Below, piece after piece: positions 2,109 through 63,464 of a DNA stretch of 64,000 bases. The position numbers and the translations under genes were made by a program. The DNA comes from Stratiformator vulcanicus (GTDB lineage Bacteria; Planctomycetota; Planctomycetia; Planctomycetales; Planctomycetaceae), in assembly GCF_007744515.1 (NCBI RefSeq), contig NZ_CP036268.1, positions 2,829,712 through 2,893,711 on the forward strand, read 5' to 3'. The notes under the pieces are model-generated. The model was not told the origin of the DNA. It saw only the letters and a list, made by a program, of their open reading frames with translations, and searched no databases. Each line of letters starts with the position of its first letter. The first letter of the stretch is position 1.

Positions 2109-4832
2109 ATGCGGTATTCGTCTCTTTCCACAATCGGGACTTCCGGCGACGTGACCAAAGGCAACGCGATAGCAGCCGGCGTCGATTTCTCGGACACGCT
2201 ATCGCTCCGTAACGTTTCGACGCACAACCTCCGCGGAATCGACATCGAATTCCCGCTGGGCAAGTTGGTCGTCGTGTGCGGGGTGAGCGGGAGCGGCAAG
2301 AGTTCTCTCGTGTTCGACACGGTGGTCGCGGAAGGAGCACGTCGTTACTGGGAGACGATCGCCACGGCATCGACGGCGCAACGGCCGCGAATGCCCAAAC
2401 CACGTGTCGATTTCGTTCGCGGGATTCCGCCGATCGTCGCGGTGGGACAGCAAACCCGACGCGAAGATCGCGGCAGCACCGTCGCGAGTCTTTCCGACAT
2501 TCTACCGCGATTGTCGCTCTTGTTCGGGCGTCTGGGCATCGCTCATGATCCTGATGGGGGACGGCCGCTCGTGACGCACTCCATCGACGAAATCGTCGAT
2601 GCACTCGGAGCATTCGAAGCACGGACGAAGTTTCTCATTCTGGGTCCGCTCAGGCGATCCGAAGATGAGACTTCGACCGAGTTGATTGAACGGGTTCGGC
2701 GTCTCGGATTTGCGCGGATTCGGATCGACGGCGAAGTCATCGACCTCGCGGAGGTCGAGCCGACAAATGTCGACGACCGACCCGCCGTGGAATTGGTTGT
2801 CGACCGCCTGATCTCCAAAGAAGGAATCGAACACCGGATTCGTGATGCCGTGCGGACGGCGACCGACCACGCAGGCGGAATTTGTATTGTCAGCCACCTT
2901 GATAGCGGTGAATTCAAAGACACCCGCTATTTGACGAGACCGGTGTGCGAACAAACGGGCCGCGCCTATCCGTCTTTGGAACCAAGAATGTTTCGGTTTG
3001 AAAGCCCGGCCGGTGCGTGTGCGATGTGCGGCGGCACCGGGACAATTGAAACAGAGACTATTGAATCCGAGACGACGCCAGACTTGATGGAAAAGGTTTG
3101 CCCGGACTGCGATGGGGCTCGCCTCGACGAGTTCAGCCGGCATGTTCGATTGGGCGGACTCACCTTTCATGAAGTCATGTCACGACCGATCGGGCAGGCT
3201 CTCGAATGGCTGCAGCAACTCGCTGATGATCTCGACAATCGTTTCCGCCCCGGTTCGATTGTGGCGGGGACGGCATCGCGGGCGATTCCGGAAATTGCCA
3301 TCCGCCTGAAAGGACTGCTGCGTCTGAGACTCGGCTATCTGTCGCTCGGTCGCGCGGTTAGCACGCTCTCCGGCGGCGAGATGCACCGGACAAGACTGGC
3401 CGGCGCGATCGGGGCGGGCTTCGTGGGCACGTGTTACGTGCTCGATGAGCCGACCTCAGGACTGCACCCGTCCGACGTCATCCAACTGATCGACGTGCTC
3501 AAAGAGCTGCGAGACCAAGGCAATTCGTTGATCGTGGTCGAACACGATCGACGGGTTGTTGAGGCGGCCGACTATGTGATCGAAGTCGGGCCGGGCGCCG
3601 GCGTGAACGGAGGTCGCATCGTCTTCAGCGGTGGGCCGGACGATCTGTCGCGATGCGCTGAGTCCGTTACTGCACGATTCCTCGGACTGCGACTGGACCA
3701 GAGCAGCAAAGCCGATCTCGATGCAATGGAACCCTCGTCAATCGCGAATGAGCCGAGTGATTTTGCGGCGACGCTGCGAAACTGCACGCGGAACAATTTG
3801 AAATCTGTTTCCGTCGAATTTCCCCGAGGGCTACTGACATGCGTGACCGGTGTGAGCGGATCGGGCAAGAGCACGCTCGTGATGGAGACGTTGGTGCCGG
3901 CGATCCGCGGCGCTCTCTCTAAAGACTTTGGCGGGCGAAAAGAGCGAGCCCCGAAATCGCCGTCGAAACCTCAAATTGGTTCCACTCCGGACGACGACGC
4001 CTTTCATGAATTTTCGGCGGACGTGCAGACCGAATCGATCACTCGTCTTGCCGTGGTCGACCGTCGTCCGGTCGGACGAAGTCCCCTTTCGGTCCCGGCG
4101 ACCTATTTGGGTATCTGGGATGAAATTCGCAAATTGTTCGCACGAACGCGGGAAGCGCGAACGGCAGGGTTTCGTCCCTCACGATTCGCGTTCACGTCGA
4201 AGTCGGGTCGCTGTCCGGCCTGCCGCGGTCGCGGGATTCGTCGGATGCGGGTGGGCGGGTTGCCTGATCAAATACGGAATTGCGAGACCTGTCACGGACG
4301 GCGTTTCAACCGCCAAACGCTTGCGGTCCGCTATAAAGGCTGCAGCGTTGGCGATGTCCTCGATATGCGGGTCGACGATGCTCAAGCATTCTTCGAGTCG
4401 GTCGAGCCGATTCACAAGGTTCTCGACGTCGTCGTCCGAATCGGGCTCGGCTATTTGCCGTTGGGGCAATCATCGACGAGCCTTTCCGGCGGGGAAGCGC
4501 AACGCCTGCGGCTGGCCCGCCATCTCACCAACGAGATGCAAGAGTCATTCATCGTGCTCGATGAACCCTCCGCGGGGCTGCATCCGGCGGACATCTGCCG
4601 CCTGACCGACGTATTGCTTGACCTCCGCTCAGCCGGCCATACGGTTGTGGCGATCGAGCATGACCTTGAGATGATTCGGCGGGCCGACTATGTCATTGAA
4701 GTCGGTCCCGGCGCGGGCGATCGGGGAGGATTAATCGTGGCCGCCGGGCCAATGGCGACGGTCGTCGGCAATCAAGATTCACTGACCGGCAAATTATTGC
4801 GGGACGTGCATCACCAAGCCGCCACGAGTTAG
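2109..4832 (+). CDS. uvrA: divergent UvrA-like excinuclease ABC subunit A (UvrA paralogue)
   Basis: About 907 residues, a tandem ABC ATPase of the UvrA family that recognises bulky DNA lesions and loads UvrB. Two Walker A motifs (GVSGSGKSS near residue 58, GVSGSGKST near residue 600) and two LSGGE signatures are present, each followed by a Walker B/D-loop such as VLDEPTSGLH and VLDEPSAGLH. CxxC pairs form zinc modules (CAMCGGTG/CPDCDGARL and CPACRGRG/CETCHGRRF). The UvrB-binding region (KPRVDFVRGIPP onward) is present. The segment between the two CxxC pairs of the first zinc module is only about 20 residues, against roughly 90 in E. coli. The start is uncertain: TTG 2049, ATG 2073, ATG 2109 and GTG 2151 are all in frame, and none has a clear ribosome site. 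Confidence 0.88.
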   Translation: MRYSSLSTIGTSGDVTKGNAIAAGVDFSDTLSLRNVSTHNLRGIDIEFPLGKLVVVCGVSGSGKSSLVFDTVVAEGARRYWETIATASTAQRPRMPKPRVDFVRGIPPIVAVGQQTRREDRGSTVASLSDILPRLSLLFGRLGIAHDPDGGRPLVTHSIDEIVDALGAFEARTKFLILGPLRRSEDETSTELIERVRRLGFARIRIDGEVIDLAEVEPTNVDDRPAVELVVDRLISKEGIEHRIRDAVRTATDHAGGICIVSHLDSGEFKDTRYLTRPVCEQTGRAYPSLEPRMFRFESPAGACAMCGGTGTIETETIESETTPDLMEKVCPDCDGARLDEFSRHVRLGGLTFHEVMSRPIGQALEWLQQLADDLDNRFRPGSIVAGTASRAIPEIAIRLKGLLRLRLGYLSLGRAVSTLSGGEMHRTRLAGAIGAGFVGTCYVLDEPTSGLHPSDVIQLIDVLKELRDQGNSLIVVEHDRRVVEAADYVIEVGPGAGVNGGRIVFSGGPDDLSRCAESVTARFLGLRLDQSSKADLDAMEPSSIANEPSDFAATLRNCTRNNLKSVSVEFPRGLLTCVTGVSGSGKSTLVMETLVPAIRGALSKDFGGRKERAPKSPSKPQIGSTPDDDAFHEFSADVQTESITRLAVVDRRPVGRSPLSVPATYLGIWDEIRKLFARTREARTAGFRPSRFAFTSKSGRCPACRGRGIRRMRVGGLPDQIRNCETCHGRRFNRQTLAVRYKGCSVGDVLDMRVDDAQAFFESVEPIHKVLDVVVRIGLGYLPLGQSSTSLSGGEAQRLRLARHLTNEMQESFIVLDEPSAGLHPADICRLTDVLLDLRSAGHTVVAIEHDLEMIRRADYVIEVGPGAGDRGGLIVAAGPMATVVGNQDSLTGKLLRDVHHQAATS

Positions 4833-4876
4833 TTCAATCGTAACACGTTTCAGCGTTTTTCTTTCGGATCGGTTTG

Positions 4877-5323
4877 ATGCAGGTTTACTCCGACGATCGC
4901 GTGCGGTTCGAATATCCGGCCGATTGGCAGATTGAAGTCACCAATACAGACGATGGCAAAGTCGTGACCGCGCAAAGCGAAACGACGGCGTTCTGGTCGC
5001 TGGCGTTGTTTCCACGCCGGCCCGATGTGAAGCGTGTCATGATGTCCGCACTCGAGGCCTACGAAGACGACTACGACGAGCTCGACGTGTACGACGCGGA
5101 TGCGGAAAACCCCCGCAGCAAGAAATGCGAAGTCGAGTTCGTCTGCCGGGAACTGATCGCCGCGGCCCGGTTACACGCGTTCGCCTCACCGGCAGGCACG
5201 GCTCTTGTGCTATTTCAATTTGCCGACGTGGAGCGCGACGATGTCGAACCGCTGCTCGAGCAGATATCGGAGTCCGTCGCGTTCATCGACGACGGATCGT
5301 CTCTCATCTTCGGTGATGCGTAG
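4877..5323 (+). CDS. hypothetical small protein, PsbP/DcrB-like fold possible
   Basis: 148 residues from ATG 4877 (a TTG lies directly before it). It begins with VRFEYPADWQIE, then has a basic/acidic middle and a strongly acidic C-terminus. The opening 'F.YP.DW.v' pattern followed by alternating strands resembles PsbP/DcrB-type lipoproteins, but there is no signal peptide. It lies 44 bp after uvrA on the same strand and could be co-transcribed. I do not recognise a specific function. Confidence 0.62.
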   Translation: MQVYSDDRVRFEYPADWQIEVTNTDDGKVVTAQSETTAFWSLALFPRRPDVKRVMMSALEAYEDDYDELDVYDADAENPRSKKCEVEFVCRELIAAARLHAFASPAGTALVLFQFADVERDDVEPLLEQISESVAFIDDGSSLIFGDA

Positions 5324-5542
5324 AGCCTACATCTATCATCGCAGCCAAACCATTGGCTCTTGGAAAGACGTCGCCGCATTGGCGGAATGTGACTGAGGTC
5401 GACTTCGAAATTGCCGCTATCGAGCAGCGTATGGAAAACGCTTGTATTGCAACCGTGACGGGGCCGGGGCTACTCTAATTGAGACGACGGTCATGCAGAT
5501 TCAAGTCGGATCTGTACTGAACCGGCCGCGACAGCTTCGGGA

Positions 5543-6583
5543 ATGCGCTCCGGCATGGCTGAAGACCCGACCAACGACGATCGTTTCAAACAGGCGCGCC
5601 GCCTGATTCGCAAAGGCAAATACGGCCCGGCGATCGAACTGGTCTGGTTACTCGTCGCGGAGTATCCACTCGACGCGGACCTGCAGGAATCGTTGGCGTC
5701 GGCGTACTTCATGGCCGGTGATTTTTCGGCGGCACTGAGGCACTTTGAACGTGTCACAAAGCTTGCCCCTCACGCTTCCGGCAAAGCGCTGGTGAATATG
5801 GGAGCGGTCTACAACCGCACCGGCGATCACCGCAAAGCGGTGGAAGTGCTCCGCCGAGGAATCGCGCGAGAGAAACGCTCGGCCGAAGGTTTTTATAACT
5901 TGGGCTTCGCACACCGCAAACTCGGCCAGAATGCGATGGCCATCAATGCCTACAAAGAGGCGGTGAAAGTCAATCCGGAGTTCGCCGAAGCATTTCAGAA
6001 TCTCGGCAATTTATATTTAGAGATGAAGAATTTTCAGCAGGCCCGAATGCAATTCGAGCGAGCCCTATCGATCCGTCCCGATTTCAAAAAGGCTAAGAAC
6101 GGGTTGGCCGAGTCGGAACGCGAGTCGAATGCCGCGCGGCGTGAATACAGCCCGTTCGGCCGACTCGTCGATCCTGCGAAGGCTAAAAAGACATCGAAGA
6201 AGAACGTCAAAGAAATGTCGTCGGCGCAGCGATGTCGCGACCGTGCTGACTTGCATGATCTGGCGAGCGAGCTGGAGGAGACGACCAGACGATTCACAAC
6301 AGCCCTCCGAGATGAATTGGAGCCGGCGCTTTACGGGCTCGAACGATTGATCGGCACCGGCCGCTCTGACGAGTCGCTGCTCAAAGGGATCGAAGAGTTT
6401 CATCAATCGGCGGTCGCGGCCCGCGAACGCCGAGGTGAAATGAAACGCAAGGTCTTGGAACTCTGGGCCCACGAAGAGTTGCAAAATACGCCGTCGACCC
6501 CGGCAAAGGCCGAAGACCCGGACACTGTTGATACCGAAGAAGAGTTCGGAGACGCCACGCCGATGATCATCGTTGATGATTAA
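5543..6583 (+). CDS. tetratricopeptide repeat protein
   Basis: 346 residues from ATG 5543 (or 342 from ATG 5555). At least four consecutive TPR units occupy roughly residues 10-190, for example AEGFYNLGFAHRKLGQNAMAI and AEAFQNLGNLYLEMKNFQQA. A basic linker with many lysines follows, then a helical charged region and an acidic tail ending in IIVDD. There is no signal peptide or membrane segment, so it is a probable cytoplasmic scaffold. The partner is unknown. The 219 bp upstream hold no other gene that I can see. Confidence 0.85.
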   Translation: MRSGMAEDPTNDDRFKQARRLIRKGKYGPAIELVWLLVAEYPLDADLQESLASAYFMAGDFSAALRHFERVTKLAPHASGKALVNMGAVYNRTGDHRKAVEVLRRGIAREKRSAEGFYNLGFAHRKLGQNAMAINAYKEAVKVNPEFAEAFQNLGNLYLEMKNFQQARMQFERALSIRPDFKKAKNGLAESERESNAARREYSPFGRLVDPAKAKKTSKKNVKEMSSAQRCRDRADLHDLASELEETTRRFTTALRDELEPALYGLERLIGTGRSDESLLKGIEEFHQSAVAARERRGEMKRKVLELWAHEELQNTPSTPAKAEDPDTVDTEEEFGDATPMIIVDD

Positions 6584-60431: not shown

Positions 60432-60851
60432 TTGAACTCCATCGCAATAGCGTCCCTGAGATGCCGACTTGAGCAAAACGCGATTCGATCGATCGCGTTC
60501 ATTACAATCATAATGCTCTACGCGACGGTCCTGCCTGCCGGGCCGGTTGAAGAATGGGCGGACGAAAATCTGACAGACGTCGTCAAGCTGTATGTCGAAC
60601 TCCACAAGTCGCCCGAACTCTCCTTCCACGAAGAGCAAACCGCGGCCCGGCTCGCCGATGAATGGCGATCGCTTGGGTTTGAGGTGACCACCGGTATCGG
60701 CGGGCACGGCGTCGTCGCTCTGATGAAGAATGGCAGCGGCCCGACTGTGATGCTGCGTTGCGACATGGACGCACTTCCGGTCACGGAGCGAACCGGGCTG
60801 CCGTACGCTTCGGAACGGACTCTCAGCCCGGCTGATGAAAGAAGAATGTGA
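60432..60851 (+). pseudogene. truncated M20D amidohydrolase (N-terminal fragment)
   Basis: 139 residues from TTG 60432; ATG 60513 is another start. Residues 50-125 match the start of M20D (IAA-amino-acid hydrolase-like) peptidases: VELHKSPELSFHEEQTA, LGFEV, GVVALMKNGSGPTVMLRCDMDALPV and TGLPYAS. Family members are about 400 residues, so nearly three quarters are missing, including most metal ligands and the dimer domain. After YAS it ends in an unrelated stretch. It overlaps the next gene by four bases, as if a deletion joined them. Confidence 0.7.
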
Positions 60852-62260
60852 CCACAGCATCGCCTGAAAAATCAGACGCCTTTAGTAAAGCGGAGTTTGT
60901 TGATACCCGAGGCAACCTCCCGCCATTGTGGTCTCGGAAAGTCATCTTCTTCGCGAACCTGCTCGGCCTGTTCTACGGCAACGAAGCAGAGACTGCCGCG
61001 CTGCGTGACGAGGTCGGAGAGATCGACTCTTACGGGGGACGATTAATTCCGATCCTCAATCTCCTGTTCCGCGGCGATGATAACCTGCTGCTATTAGAGC
61101 GCGAGGCGAGCGAGGAACACTGTCGGTACCTGCGCGACGACCTCGGGCTTTCGCTTCCCCGGCTGCATGTGATGCCGCACGATCAATACTTGGAGCTGAA
61201 CCGCCATCTCAAAGAGCAGCACTCCGCTAATATTGCGGCATTGCTCGATGTCACCGGCCGACACAACACCGACTGGATTGACGGCTACGTAACCGATGAA
61301 ACCCTGACACGTGTGGCGGAGCACTTAAATTGCCGCACGATCAGCACGATGGCCGCCAGCCGCGACGGCAACAATAAATTACTGCTTCATCGTTATCTTA
61401 AAGAAGCCGGGTTGCCGACGATTGAAACGTTGGAGGCGAATTCTCGCGACAACGCCATTCAAGCGGCCAAGCAATTGCAGCAGCGCGGGTTCGGGTCCGC
61501 GGTAATTCGATCCCAGATCGGAGCCTCCGGCATCGGGACTTTACATGTCCGTCCGCCTTATGATCAGAGTTCGTTTCCGCCTATTCCGGAATATTATTTC
61601 TATGAGGGCCCGTGCATGGTTCAGGGCTGGCTCGGGAAGGGGACTATGGATGTCCGGCACGTCCACAGTCCCAGCACGCAGATTTTTCTCGACGAGTCAC
61701 GAGTTTACGCGTTTGATTTGACAGAACAGATCCTAAGCGACGAGTCGGTCCACCAGGGGAATGAGTCGCCGCCGACCTATCTTGCAAGGTTCCCCGCCCT
61801 GCGTGAAGAAATGATGCGACAAGCAGAGTCAGCCGGTGGTTGGCTGCATCAAACCGGCTACCGCGGGACGGCGAGTATCGATTGGCTGGTTGTCGAAAAA
61901 GAGGGTCGATCGACACCTGAAGTCTATGTGTGCGAGATCAATGCCCGAGTTACTGGAGCGACCTATCCGTCGCTGTTGGGTCGACACTTCAATCCGAGCG
62001 GAGCGTGGTTATTGCAGAACCTTCGACTCGGGGTGCCGGCGACGGCGGAAGACCTGCTTAAGATGTTGGAGCAGCCCGGCCACCTGTATCATCCCGGTAA
62101 AAATGCCGGCGTACTCCCACTCAATCTTAATTTCGGGAAGGACAATCTGGTGCATAAGGGCCAGTTTCTCTGCCTCGGCCGCACTGTCGAAGAGTGTCAT
62201 CAATTTCTCTCCCTGGCAGAACAGGACATGCCGGTCACGTGGAACCGTGATCGTGATTAA
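60848..62260 (+). CDS. ATP-grasp ligase with pre-ATP-grasp (PGM1-like) N-domain
   Basis: 470 residues from GTG 60848, preceded by AAAGAAG. Residues 25-150 resemble the pre-ATP-grasp domain (SRKVIFFANLLGLFYG). The ATP-grasp part follows: KLLLHRYLKEAGLPTIET, FGSAVIRSQIGASGIG, and the metal/phosphate block VYVCEINARVTGATYPSLLGRHF. It should form an acyl-phosphate and then a peptide or amide bond. It lies 55 bp before an M20 peptidase gene. The substrates are unknown. Confidence 0.75.
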   Translation: MTTASPEKSDAFSKAEFVDTRGNLPPLWSRKVIFFANLLGLFYGNEAETAALRDEVGEIDSYGGRLIPILNLLFRGDDNLLLLEREASEEHCRYLRDDLGLSLPRLHVMPHDQYLELNRHLKEQHSANIAALLDVTGRHNTDWIDGYVTDETLTRVAEHLNCRTISTMAASRDGNNKLLLHRYLKEAGLPTIETLEANSRDNAIQAAKQLQQRGFGSAVIRSQIGASGIGTLHVRPPYDQSSFPPIPEYYFYEGPCMVQGWLGKGTMDVRHVHSPSTQIFLDESRVYAFDLTEQILSDESVHQGNESPPTYLARFPALREEMMRQAESAGGWLHQTGYRGTASIDWLVVEKEGRSTPEVYVCEINARVTGATYPSLLGRHFNPSGAWLLQNLRLGVPATAEDLLKMLEQPGHLYHPGKNAGVLPLNLNFGKDNLVHKGQFLCLGRTVEECHQFLSLAEQDMPVTWNRDRD

Positions 62261-62315
62261 TCACGAACTCTTCTCGTGAGCAGCCTTGGTTAAGGACAGC
62301 TTGAATAAGGACAAT

Positions 62316-63464
62316 ATGAGCAGCAGCGACAACGAACTTCGATCCCGATTAACCGCGCTGACACGGGACCTCGTCTTAATTCCCAGTACTGACAGTCGAC
62401 CGCGAGAGCGGAAGCGATGTTTCGAGTTCCTGCAAAATCACTTGGAGCAAGGCGAGGGAATCCGCACCGACTACTTCGAAAGTCGCGGATACCACTCCAT
62501 GGTCGTTAGGCCCGACGGTGTCGATGAACCCGACGTGCTCCTTTGCGGACATATCGACGTTATCGAGCACTCCGATCCCGACTGTTATCACTCGAAACTT
62601 AACGAGGGGAGAATTTACGGGCCCGGCACGGGAGATATGAAGGGCCAGATCGCGATTCTGGTCGAATTGCACCGCGCCCTGCACACGGCGCACCCGGGGT
62701 TATCGTTAGGATTGGCATTAACATCTGATGAGGAGCGGGGAGGCTTCGACGGTATCCGCTACCTCATCGATGAAGTCGGACTGCGGTGCGGCGTCGCCAT
62801 CATCCCCGATGGCGGATCGCTGAATGATGTGACAACTGAGGAAAAAGGTGTTCTCCATGCCCAAGTGATGCGAAGCGGGCATGAAGCCCATGCGGCGCGC
62901 CCTTGGCTGGGTGACAATGCGCTGGAATCGCTGATTCAAAGTCTTTCTCGATTAAGAGACCATTTCGATCAGTATTGGCCTTCGGAATCGATCGAGGAAC
63001 AGGTCAATCACTGGTTCCCGACCTGTTCGATCACCATCTGCTCGACCGAAAACACAACGCCGAATCGCATCCCGGAAAAAGCGACTGCCGTGCTCGATAT
63101 TCGCTTCCCACCGCCATATTCGGTAGAGAGCGTCATTTCGCAGGTGAGAGACGTGCTCGGTCCGGAATGTCTGTTGCAGCCGCTCATGACTGCGGAGCCG
63201 ACACACCTCGACCCCGACCCATTGTTTTGCAAAGCGACGGAAGAAATGACCGGCAATTCTGTGCGGCTCGTCCGCGCTTCGGGAGGAAGTGACGGCCGGT
63301 TCTTTCGACAGCAGGGCATTCCCGTCAATCTTTCGCGACCACTGGTTGGCAACCTGCACGCCGTCGATGAATGGATCGAGATCGACTCAATGGTCCGCTA
63401 CTACCGCGTCTGCGAATCTTATATTCGGCAAAGGCTTGCCATTTCAATTAATGGGATGGGCTGA
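62316..63464 (+). CDS. M20 family metallopeptidase (ArgE/DapE/CPG2-like)
   Basis: 382 residues from ATG 62316 with AAGGA upstream; the frame is open to 62286. The M20 landmarks are complete: GHID with His79 and Asp81, [10 protein letters not shown] with Asp107, the catalytic Glu in SDEERGG (139-140), IPDGG with Asp165, the dimer-domain [17 protein letters not shown], and [11 protein letters not shown] with the last His. It hydrolyses an amide, such as an N-acyl amino acid or dipeptide. There is no signal peptide. With the ATP-grasp ligase it makes a make/break pair. Confidence 0.87.

Follow-up and report, generated by a model that had tools for sequence, protein, structure and literature searches.

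A predicted ATP-grasp ligase and M20 hydrolase encoded side by side in Stratiformator vulcanicus and other planctomycetes: a candidate make-and-break pair

When a gene for an enzyme class that forms amide bonds is directly followed by a gene for a class that cleaves them, do the two products act on the same compound? We addressed this question for a gene pair near the right end of the window, a stretch of 64,000 nucleotides that corresponds to bases 2829712–2893711 of the single 5.23 Mb contig of Stratiformator vulcanicus (G000). The predicted ATP-grasp ligase gene (60848–62260, forward strand, GTG start, 470 amino acids) and the predicted M20 metallo-hydrolase gene (62316–63464, forward strand, ATG start, 382 amino acids) both have open frames. 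They are separated by an intergenic gap of 55 base pairs (bp) on the forward strand (62261–62315), counted to the M20 ATG at 62316; the M20 open reading frame extends over 62286–63464 and is open from a TTG at 62286. An earlier interpretation of the bare letters (the sequence-only reading) had placed the two genes 55 bp apart in the same direction, which we confirmed, and had taken them for a possible make-and-break pair. A consensus scan found no terminator-like hairpin inside the gap; one (62147–62164) lies within the ligase gene, and the scan returned 7 sites versus 3.2 expected.

Results

Occurrence and pairing of the two genes

Genome searches for the ligase stayed within the phylum and yielded full-length matches in 16 unique genomes: G000, G011, G782, G114 and 12 members of family f98, with locus L003 and G011 treated as one genome. 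In every one of the 16 the ligase is immediately followed by M20 sequence in the same orientation. Two of the 16 ligase matches (G418 and G415) have an internal stop, and in one genome (G457) the ligase frame is open and the M20 gene decayed.

Both genes are rare outside f98. The ligase was detected in two of 59 genomes of the relatives of the window (G000 and G011), in 3/397 genomes of its class, Planctomycetia (G000, G011 and G782; E 1e-20), and in 7/392 genomes of a phylum sample at E 0.001, a count that still included G386; the latter was then dropped as a partial or chance match (82 residues, 35%, E 3.5e-5). In the class of G418, 13 of 75 genomes matched, all of them in f98, where 13/17 genomes are positive; one of these (G456) retains a remnant of 67 positions, leaving 12/17 with a full-length gene. 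None of the 33 genomes of family f49 matched, nor did a plasmid collection or viral contigs. A peptide-pattern search of genome contigs returned a single locus, L003, and missed relatives of less than 65% identity that were found later. At E 1e-60 the M20 of the window had matches in G000, G114 and six f98 genomes, making eight of the 392 in the phylum sample. An M20 profile matched 15/75 genomes in the class of G418, every one a member of f98 (15/17), and 8/397 Planctomycetia (E 1e-60).

Given that hydrazine-synthase alpha (PF18582) was matched over cut-off in 11 of the 14 f98 genomes searched (the exceptions being G452, G450 and G454), we regard f98 as an anammox family. It is probably Scalinduaceae, and f49, in which three of four genomes matched PF18582, is probably Brocadiaceae. 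No PF18582 match was obtained in G000, G011 or G782. G114, which carries the pair and lies outside the G418 class, has a PF18582 match at C2:111083-111379 (71.5 bits, over cut-off) in an open frame of 778 amino acids.

The sequence-only reading had named relatives with just one of the two genes, or a spacing that varies, as evidence against it; both occur in part. Order and strand held in every genome with a full-length ligase; spacing varied. Measured to the nearest plausible starts, gaps ranged from 15 to ~125 bp. The first aligned M20 residue is 260 bp from the ligase in G782 and 13 bp from it in G114, where the M20 start is uncertain and the genes may overlap. The pairing was moreover one-sided, with nine genomes carrying the M20 gene and no full-length ligase.

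Trees were built from 15 sequences for each protein, leaving out G457 (decayed M20) and G456 (ligase remnant). They agree on the main groups, namely the Planctomycetia trio, f98, G448 with G415, and G453 with G449, which points to a probable long history of joint inheritance of ligase and M20, as judged from these sequences.

Inspection by eye showed no further neighbour that the window shares with all six relatives whose stretches were listed at length. A thioredoxin-reductase-like gene follows the pair in some f98 members. In L003, the nearest relative, whose ligase and M20 are 65% and 70% identical to those of the window, a divergent class V aminotransferase-like gene (3557-5014) and an acetylglutamate-kinase-like gene (4945-5847), both named by eye, lie directly upstream of the pair.

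The ATP-grasp ligase

All listed Pfam and NCBIfam matches of the ligase fell under cut-off, including the PreAtp-grasp domain PF18604 (17.8 bits, cut-off 27.5), NF005096 (26.1, cut-off 684) and TIGR00768 (20, cut-off 143.4), and PreAtp-grasp was weakly detected (E up to 0.1) in five of seven family members. By these comparisons the ligase belongs to a subfamily without a curated family. A single-sequence search of solved structures gave no match at E 0.001, whereas a profile of seven relatives matched 8ynd, a Streptomyces ATP-grasp peptide ligase, at E 3.6e-4 and PGM1 at E 0.14.

We obtained a structure model of the ligase from 16 sequences, with a mean predicted local distance difference test score (pLDDT) of 70.2, which superseded a model built from seven sequences (mean pLDDT 59.0). 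The best structural match was PGM1 (3wvq; Z 22.8, root-mean-square deviation 3.7 A over 354 residues), followed by 8ynd (Z 22.3), BesA (8yi6, Z 21.3) and SAOUHSC_02373 (7r8p, Z 20.5). PurK and GAR synthetase scored lower (Z 17.3 or less), and Foldseek placed 8ynd on top (E 2.3e-12). The modeled enzyme is thus a PGM1/BesA-like ATP-grasp protein at the level of the fold, and the label "PGM1-like" in the sequence-only reading was correct in that sense, with matches to sequence families being weak. PGM1 (3wvq/3wvr) is pheganomycin ligase. PGM1, 8ynd and BesA, the closest folds (Z 21-23), share just 16-17% identity with the window ligase in the structural alignment. Unlike these enzymes, the window ligase is accompanied by no further recognised biosynthetic gene, the M20 gene standing alone beside it.

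In an alignment of 16 ligases, which includes two clearly partial sequences, the residues E363, N365 and R367 of an E363-x-N365-x-R367 motif are invariant in 16/16. At residue 221 three rows (the window, L003 and L033) carry arginine, and the remaining 13 of the 16 carry lysine. We assume that E363/N365/R367 is the metal motif and that residue 221 is the position of the nucleotide-binding lysine.

The M20 hydrolase

The sequence-only reading had called the M20 peptidase complete. Both of its Pfam domains scored over cut-off, PF01546 with 80.2 bits (cut-off 24.6, E 2.5e-22) and PF07687 (M20_dimer) with 57.4 bits (cut-off 21, E 1.6e-15), and the catalytic residues are present. In an alignment of 23 sequences, from which the broken genes of G455 and G457 were left out, H79, D81, D107, E139, E140 and D165 are invariant in every row, as is H348 in all 22 rows that reach it. 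On this alignment the window M20 keeps the metal-ligand and catalytic Glu residues. R263, conserved in 23/23 rows, aligns with an arginine of DapE (5vo3) that presumably binds the substrate carboxylate.

The window M20 matches 19 solved sequences at E 0.001, none of which is a chain named carnosinase. The closest by sequence is 2RB7, an M20/M25/M40 family peptidase from Desulfovibrio (E 4e-34 alone, 5.5e-56 with a profile); the stretches SRP...RC..F and ARPW.G.NA are common to both.

Taken together, the sequence and model comparisons support the enzyme classes assigned in the sequence-only reading, and with them the predicted opposite chemistry of amide formation and cleavage.

Genomes with one gene of the pair

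The nine genomes with an M20 gene and no full-length ligase comprise four of f98 (G405, G347, G455 and G456) and five Planctomycetia (G530, G006, G736, G775 and G030), the M20 proteins of the latter five being 61-69% identical to that of the window. The four f98 genomes are drafts of 86-95% completeness, so that a ligase gene could sit in a missing piece; the class search listed no ligase match for G405, G347 and G455, and G456 has the ligase remnant. For the Planctomycetia, absence of the ligase was read from the search of relatives (G006 and G030) or from the matches listed for the class search (G530, G736 and G775). A ligase profile had no match in the 14-19 kb surrounding the lone M20 genes of the five Planctomycetia, nor in the loci of G405, G347 and G455, and it detected the ligase in the paired control L073. 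The lone M20 gene of G405 has a histidine-kinase-like gene upstream, that of G347 begins 60 bp from a contig end, and that of G455 has a frame break.

Mapped on the M20 tree, presence or absence of the ligase takes four changes, of which at least three are forced by well-supported branches. Ratios of nonsynonymous to synonymous substitution (dN/dS, Nei-Gojobori) were 0.095-0.153 for paired M20 genes (three pairs), 0.107-0.148 for ligase genes (three pairs) and 0.093-0.219 for M20 genes without a full-length ligase (five pairs from six genomes, with G530, G006 and G455 left out). Because this indicates purifying selection where measured, the lone M20 gene looks like a working gene in the six genomes.

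The reverse case is G457, probably Candidatus Scalindua rubra. Its M20 gene (L024, ~1800-2500, reverse complement) lacks the middle, and what is left, the beginning and the final third, is spread over several frames. The draft assembly of Scalindua rubra was corrected for IonTorrent errors, according to its genome report (PMC5486813), so sequencing errors could account for some of the frame breaks, though less likely for the loss of the middle part.

Two lone M20 settings differ in their neighbours, all named by eye: a pyridoxal phosphate (PLP) aminotransferase-like gene (L068:10013-11290) follows the M20 gene in G530, and sulfatase-like genes precede it in G736 and G775.

Discussion

Proposed function of the pair

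We propose that the two genes form a metabolic cassette in which the ligase makes a small amide and the M20 hydrolase cuts the same bond, a proposal that we regard as evenly poised between right and wrong. The ligase would consume ATP and proceed through an acyl-phosphate, as ATP-grasp ligases do, and its product would most likely be a dipeptide or an acyl-amino-acid. The hydrolase would cleave that same amide bond and give the building blocks back, and its DapE-like arginine may bind a carboxylate of the substrate. It would be the more durable half of the pair, also using substrate that is imported or produced in some other way, and this would explain why it survives alone. A ligase nearly always found with the hydrolase, together with a hydrolase that thrives without the ligase, therefore fits a make-and-recycle pair in which the hydrolase has extra sources of substrate. 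We infer that both enzymes share one compound, that this compound is dipeptide-like and that it serves as a reserve, protectant or osmolyte.

Several observations weigh against this proposal. The nine genomes with an M20 gene and no full-length ligase suggest that the hydrolase may have a job of its own. The linkage between the two genes is genomic, and action on one substrate is a further step of interpretation. Confidence in the ligase model is middling (mean pLDDT 70.2), with stretches below 50 that include residues 222-236 and 240-260, and at the presumed position of the usual ATP-binding lysine the window and two relatives have arginine (R221). The two trees place G451 and G418 differently and also diverge at weak internal branches; the ligase tree came with warnings about long branches and about the composition of G011.

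The main rival reading, which we hold to be possible but distinctly doubtful, is that M20 works on its own as an aminoacylase or dipeptidase for scavenging and that the ligase makes something else, the two being neighbours under one promoter through nitrogen or amino-acid recycling. It draws on the five of eight Planctomycetia with this M20, and the four f98 genomes, in which no full-length ligase was found, on the persistence of the catalytic residues in the eight lone M20 rows aligned, and on purifying selection in the six measured. It accounts poorly for the fact that M20 sequence is the next gene in 16/16 ligase genomes and is decayed in just one of the 16; this one-way dependence of the ligase on M20 is unlike what unrelated jobs would predict. 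An improbable alternative is sequential biosynthesis, in which the ligase puts on a protecting or carrier group and M20 takes it off once other enzymes have done their work, as LysX and LysK do on LysW. The LysW route uses an ATP-grasp ligase (LysX) plus an M20 hydrolase (LysK), the same combination of classes as here, and L003 has an acetylglutamate-kinase-like gene (by eye) directly upstream of the pair. No amino-acid kinase-like gene was, however, recognised by eye beside the pair in the other listed stretches. The sequence-only reading had seen no transporter or carrier gene, and this held: none was seen adjoining the pair in the window, and the LysW model TIGR01206 matched in none of nine pair-bearing genomes tested at E 0.001. 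It matched in 4/14 control genomes (three over cut-off) and, across the 14 genomes tested in all, gave a single weak match that stayed under the cut-off and came from a genome lacking the pair. The present system also differs from LysW-LysX-LysK in reaching no equivalog-level score, with 13.8 of 275.6 bits for the ligase against LysX (LysX_arch) and 51.7 of 363 for M20 against the [LysW]-lysine hydrolase, and we consider a LysW carrier role disfavoured. A protect-and-deprotect pathway is also a poorer fit, since a genome that has M20 but no ligase would offer no substrate for deprotection.

M20 might instead be the ArgE or DapE of the cell, with the ligase a bystander. DapE and ArgE models are its best NCBIfam matches, and the kinase-like gene of L003 resembles ArgB. 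The best 25 of 44 NCBIfam M20 matches were nevertheless all under cut-off (DapE 160.8 of 381 bits; ArgE/DapE subfamily 131.7 of 217.6; ArgE 94.9 of 297.7). ArgJ scored over cut-off in 14/14 genomes tested, and an acetylornithine deacetylase is therefore not needed; moreover, 389 of 397 Planctomycetia gave no M20 match (E 1e-60), which is unexpected for a housekeeping step. These results make such a role very improbable. The arginine-pathway lead from L003 was dropped in view of the ArgJ result, with no ArgB-like gene seen by eye in the other listed stretches.

Precedents and significance

The make-and-break proposal has a precedent in carnosine, for which PMC6271292 describes an ATP-grasp synthase, ATPGD1, that makes the dipeptide and an M20 enzyme, carnosinase, that cuts it. 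The two enzyme classes are those of the window pair, and the residues noted above correspond to the metal ligands and catalytic Glu given there for carnosinase CN2. The carnosine pair is described there for vertebrates, whereas the window pair is planctomycetal. The sequence-only reading had further stated that it knew of no described pathway with this exact pair in Planctomycetes: literature searches for the pair or for relatives of the ligase turned up no description of it there among the titles and abstract openings listed, but an ATP-grasp enzyme and an M20 enzyme that make and break one dipeptide were already described for carnosine.

In the majority of genomes of a single anammox family (probably Scalinduaceae), and in a handful of other planctomycetes, the ligase subfamily has a genetic link to a hydrolase. 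Should the product of the ligase be identified, it might prove to be a novel small molecule from bacteria of environmental importance. Nature also provides genomes that carry both genes, only the hydrolase or only the ligase, a comparison set in which the make-and-break idea can be tested directly.

The boldest reading, and a long shot, is that the pair serves to synthesise and recycle a peptide-type solute or nitrogen reserve not yet described, which would be characteristic of the marine anammox bacteria of f98 and missing from f49. In PMC5486813, Scalindua genomes are reported to be unable to make glycine betaine or ectoine, and Scalindua rubra is thought to rely on compatible solutes, with the identity of the solute left open. 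Dipeptide-type osmolytes are known in halophiles, an example in PMC1224877 being N-acetylglutaminylglutamine amide. Against the solute idea, PMC5486813 also credits each of the three Scalindua genomes with a betaine transporter and infers that the two species besides Scalindua rubra probably follow a salt-in strategy. The idea is drawn from distribution, which is confounded with ancestry: the contrast between f98 and f49 may be a single phylogenetic event and is therefore no test of a link to salinity. The isolate name of L003 contains HKST, which may stand for the saline Sha Tin plant, although that string does not occur in the consulted passages of PMC8495973. If true, the solute idea would bear on which organic solute Scalindua uses, and Scalindua rubra would stand out as the species with the ligase retained and the hydrolase gone.

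Genes flanking the pair

To the left of the pair, positions 60432–60851 (forward strand) encode the truncated N-terminal part of another amidohydrolase of the M20 type (CpsA/TIGR01891), unlike the M20 of the pair; this fragment covers model positions 12-96 of 391 of NF040868. Its similarity stops shortly before the ATP-grasp start, and it is probably a relic beside the left edge of the cassette and outside it. The fragment was not found in the loci of 11 relatives that carry the preceding lipoprotein-like gene (E 0.001, flanks of ~1.5 kb). In the window that gene lies upstream of the fragment, behind a secretin-like gene; the names of both were given by eye. On the other side, the pair is directly followed by an FRG-domain gene (63685–64449) that continues past the end of the window.

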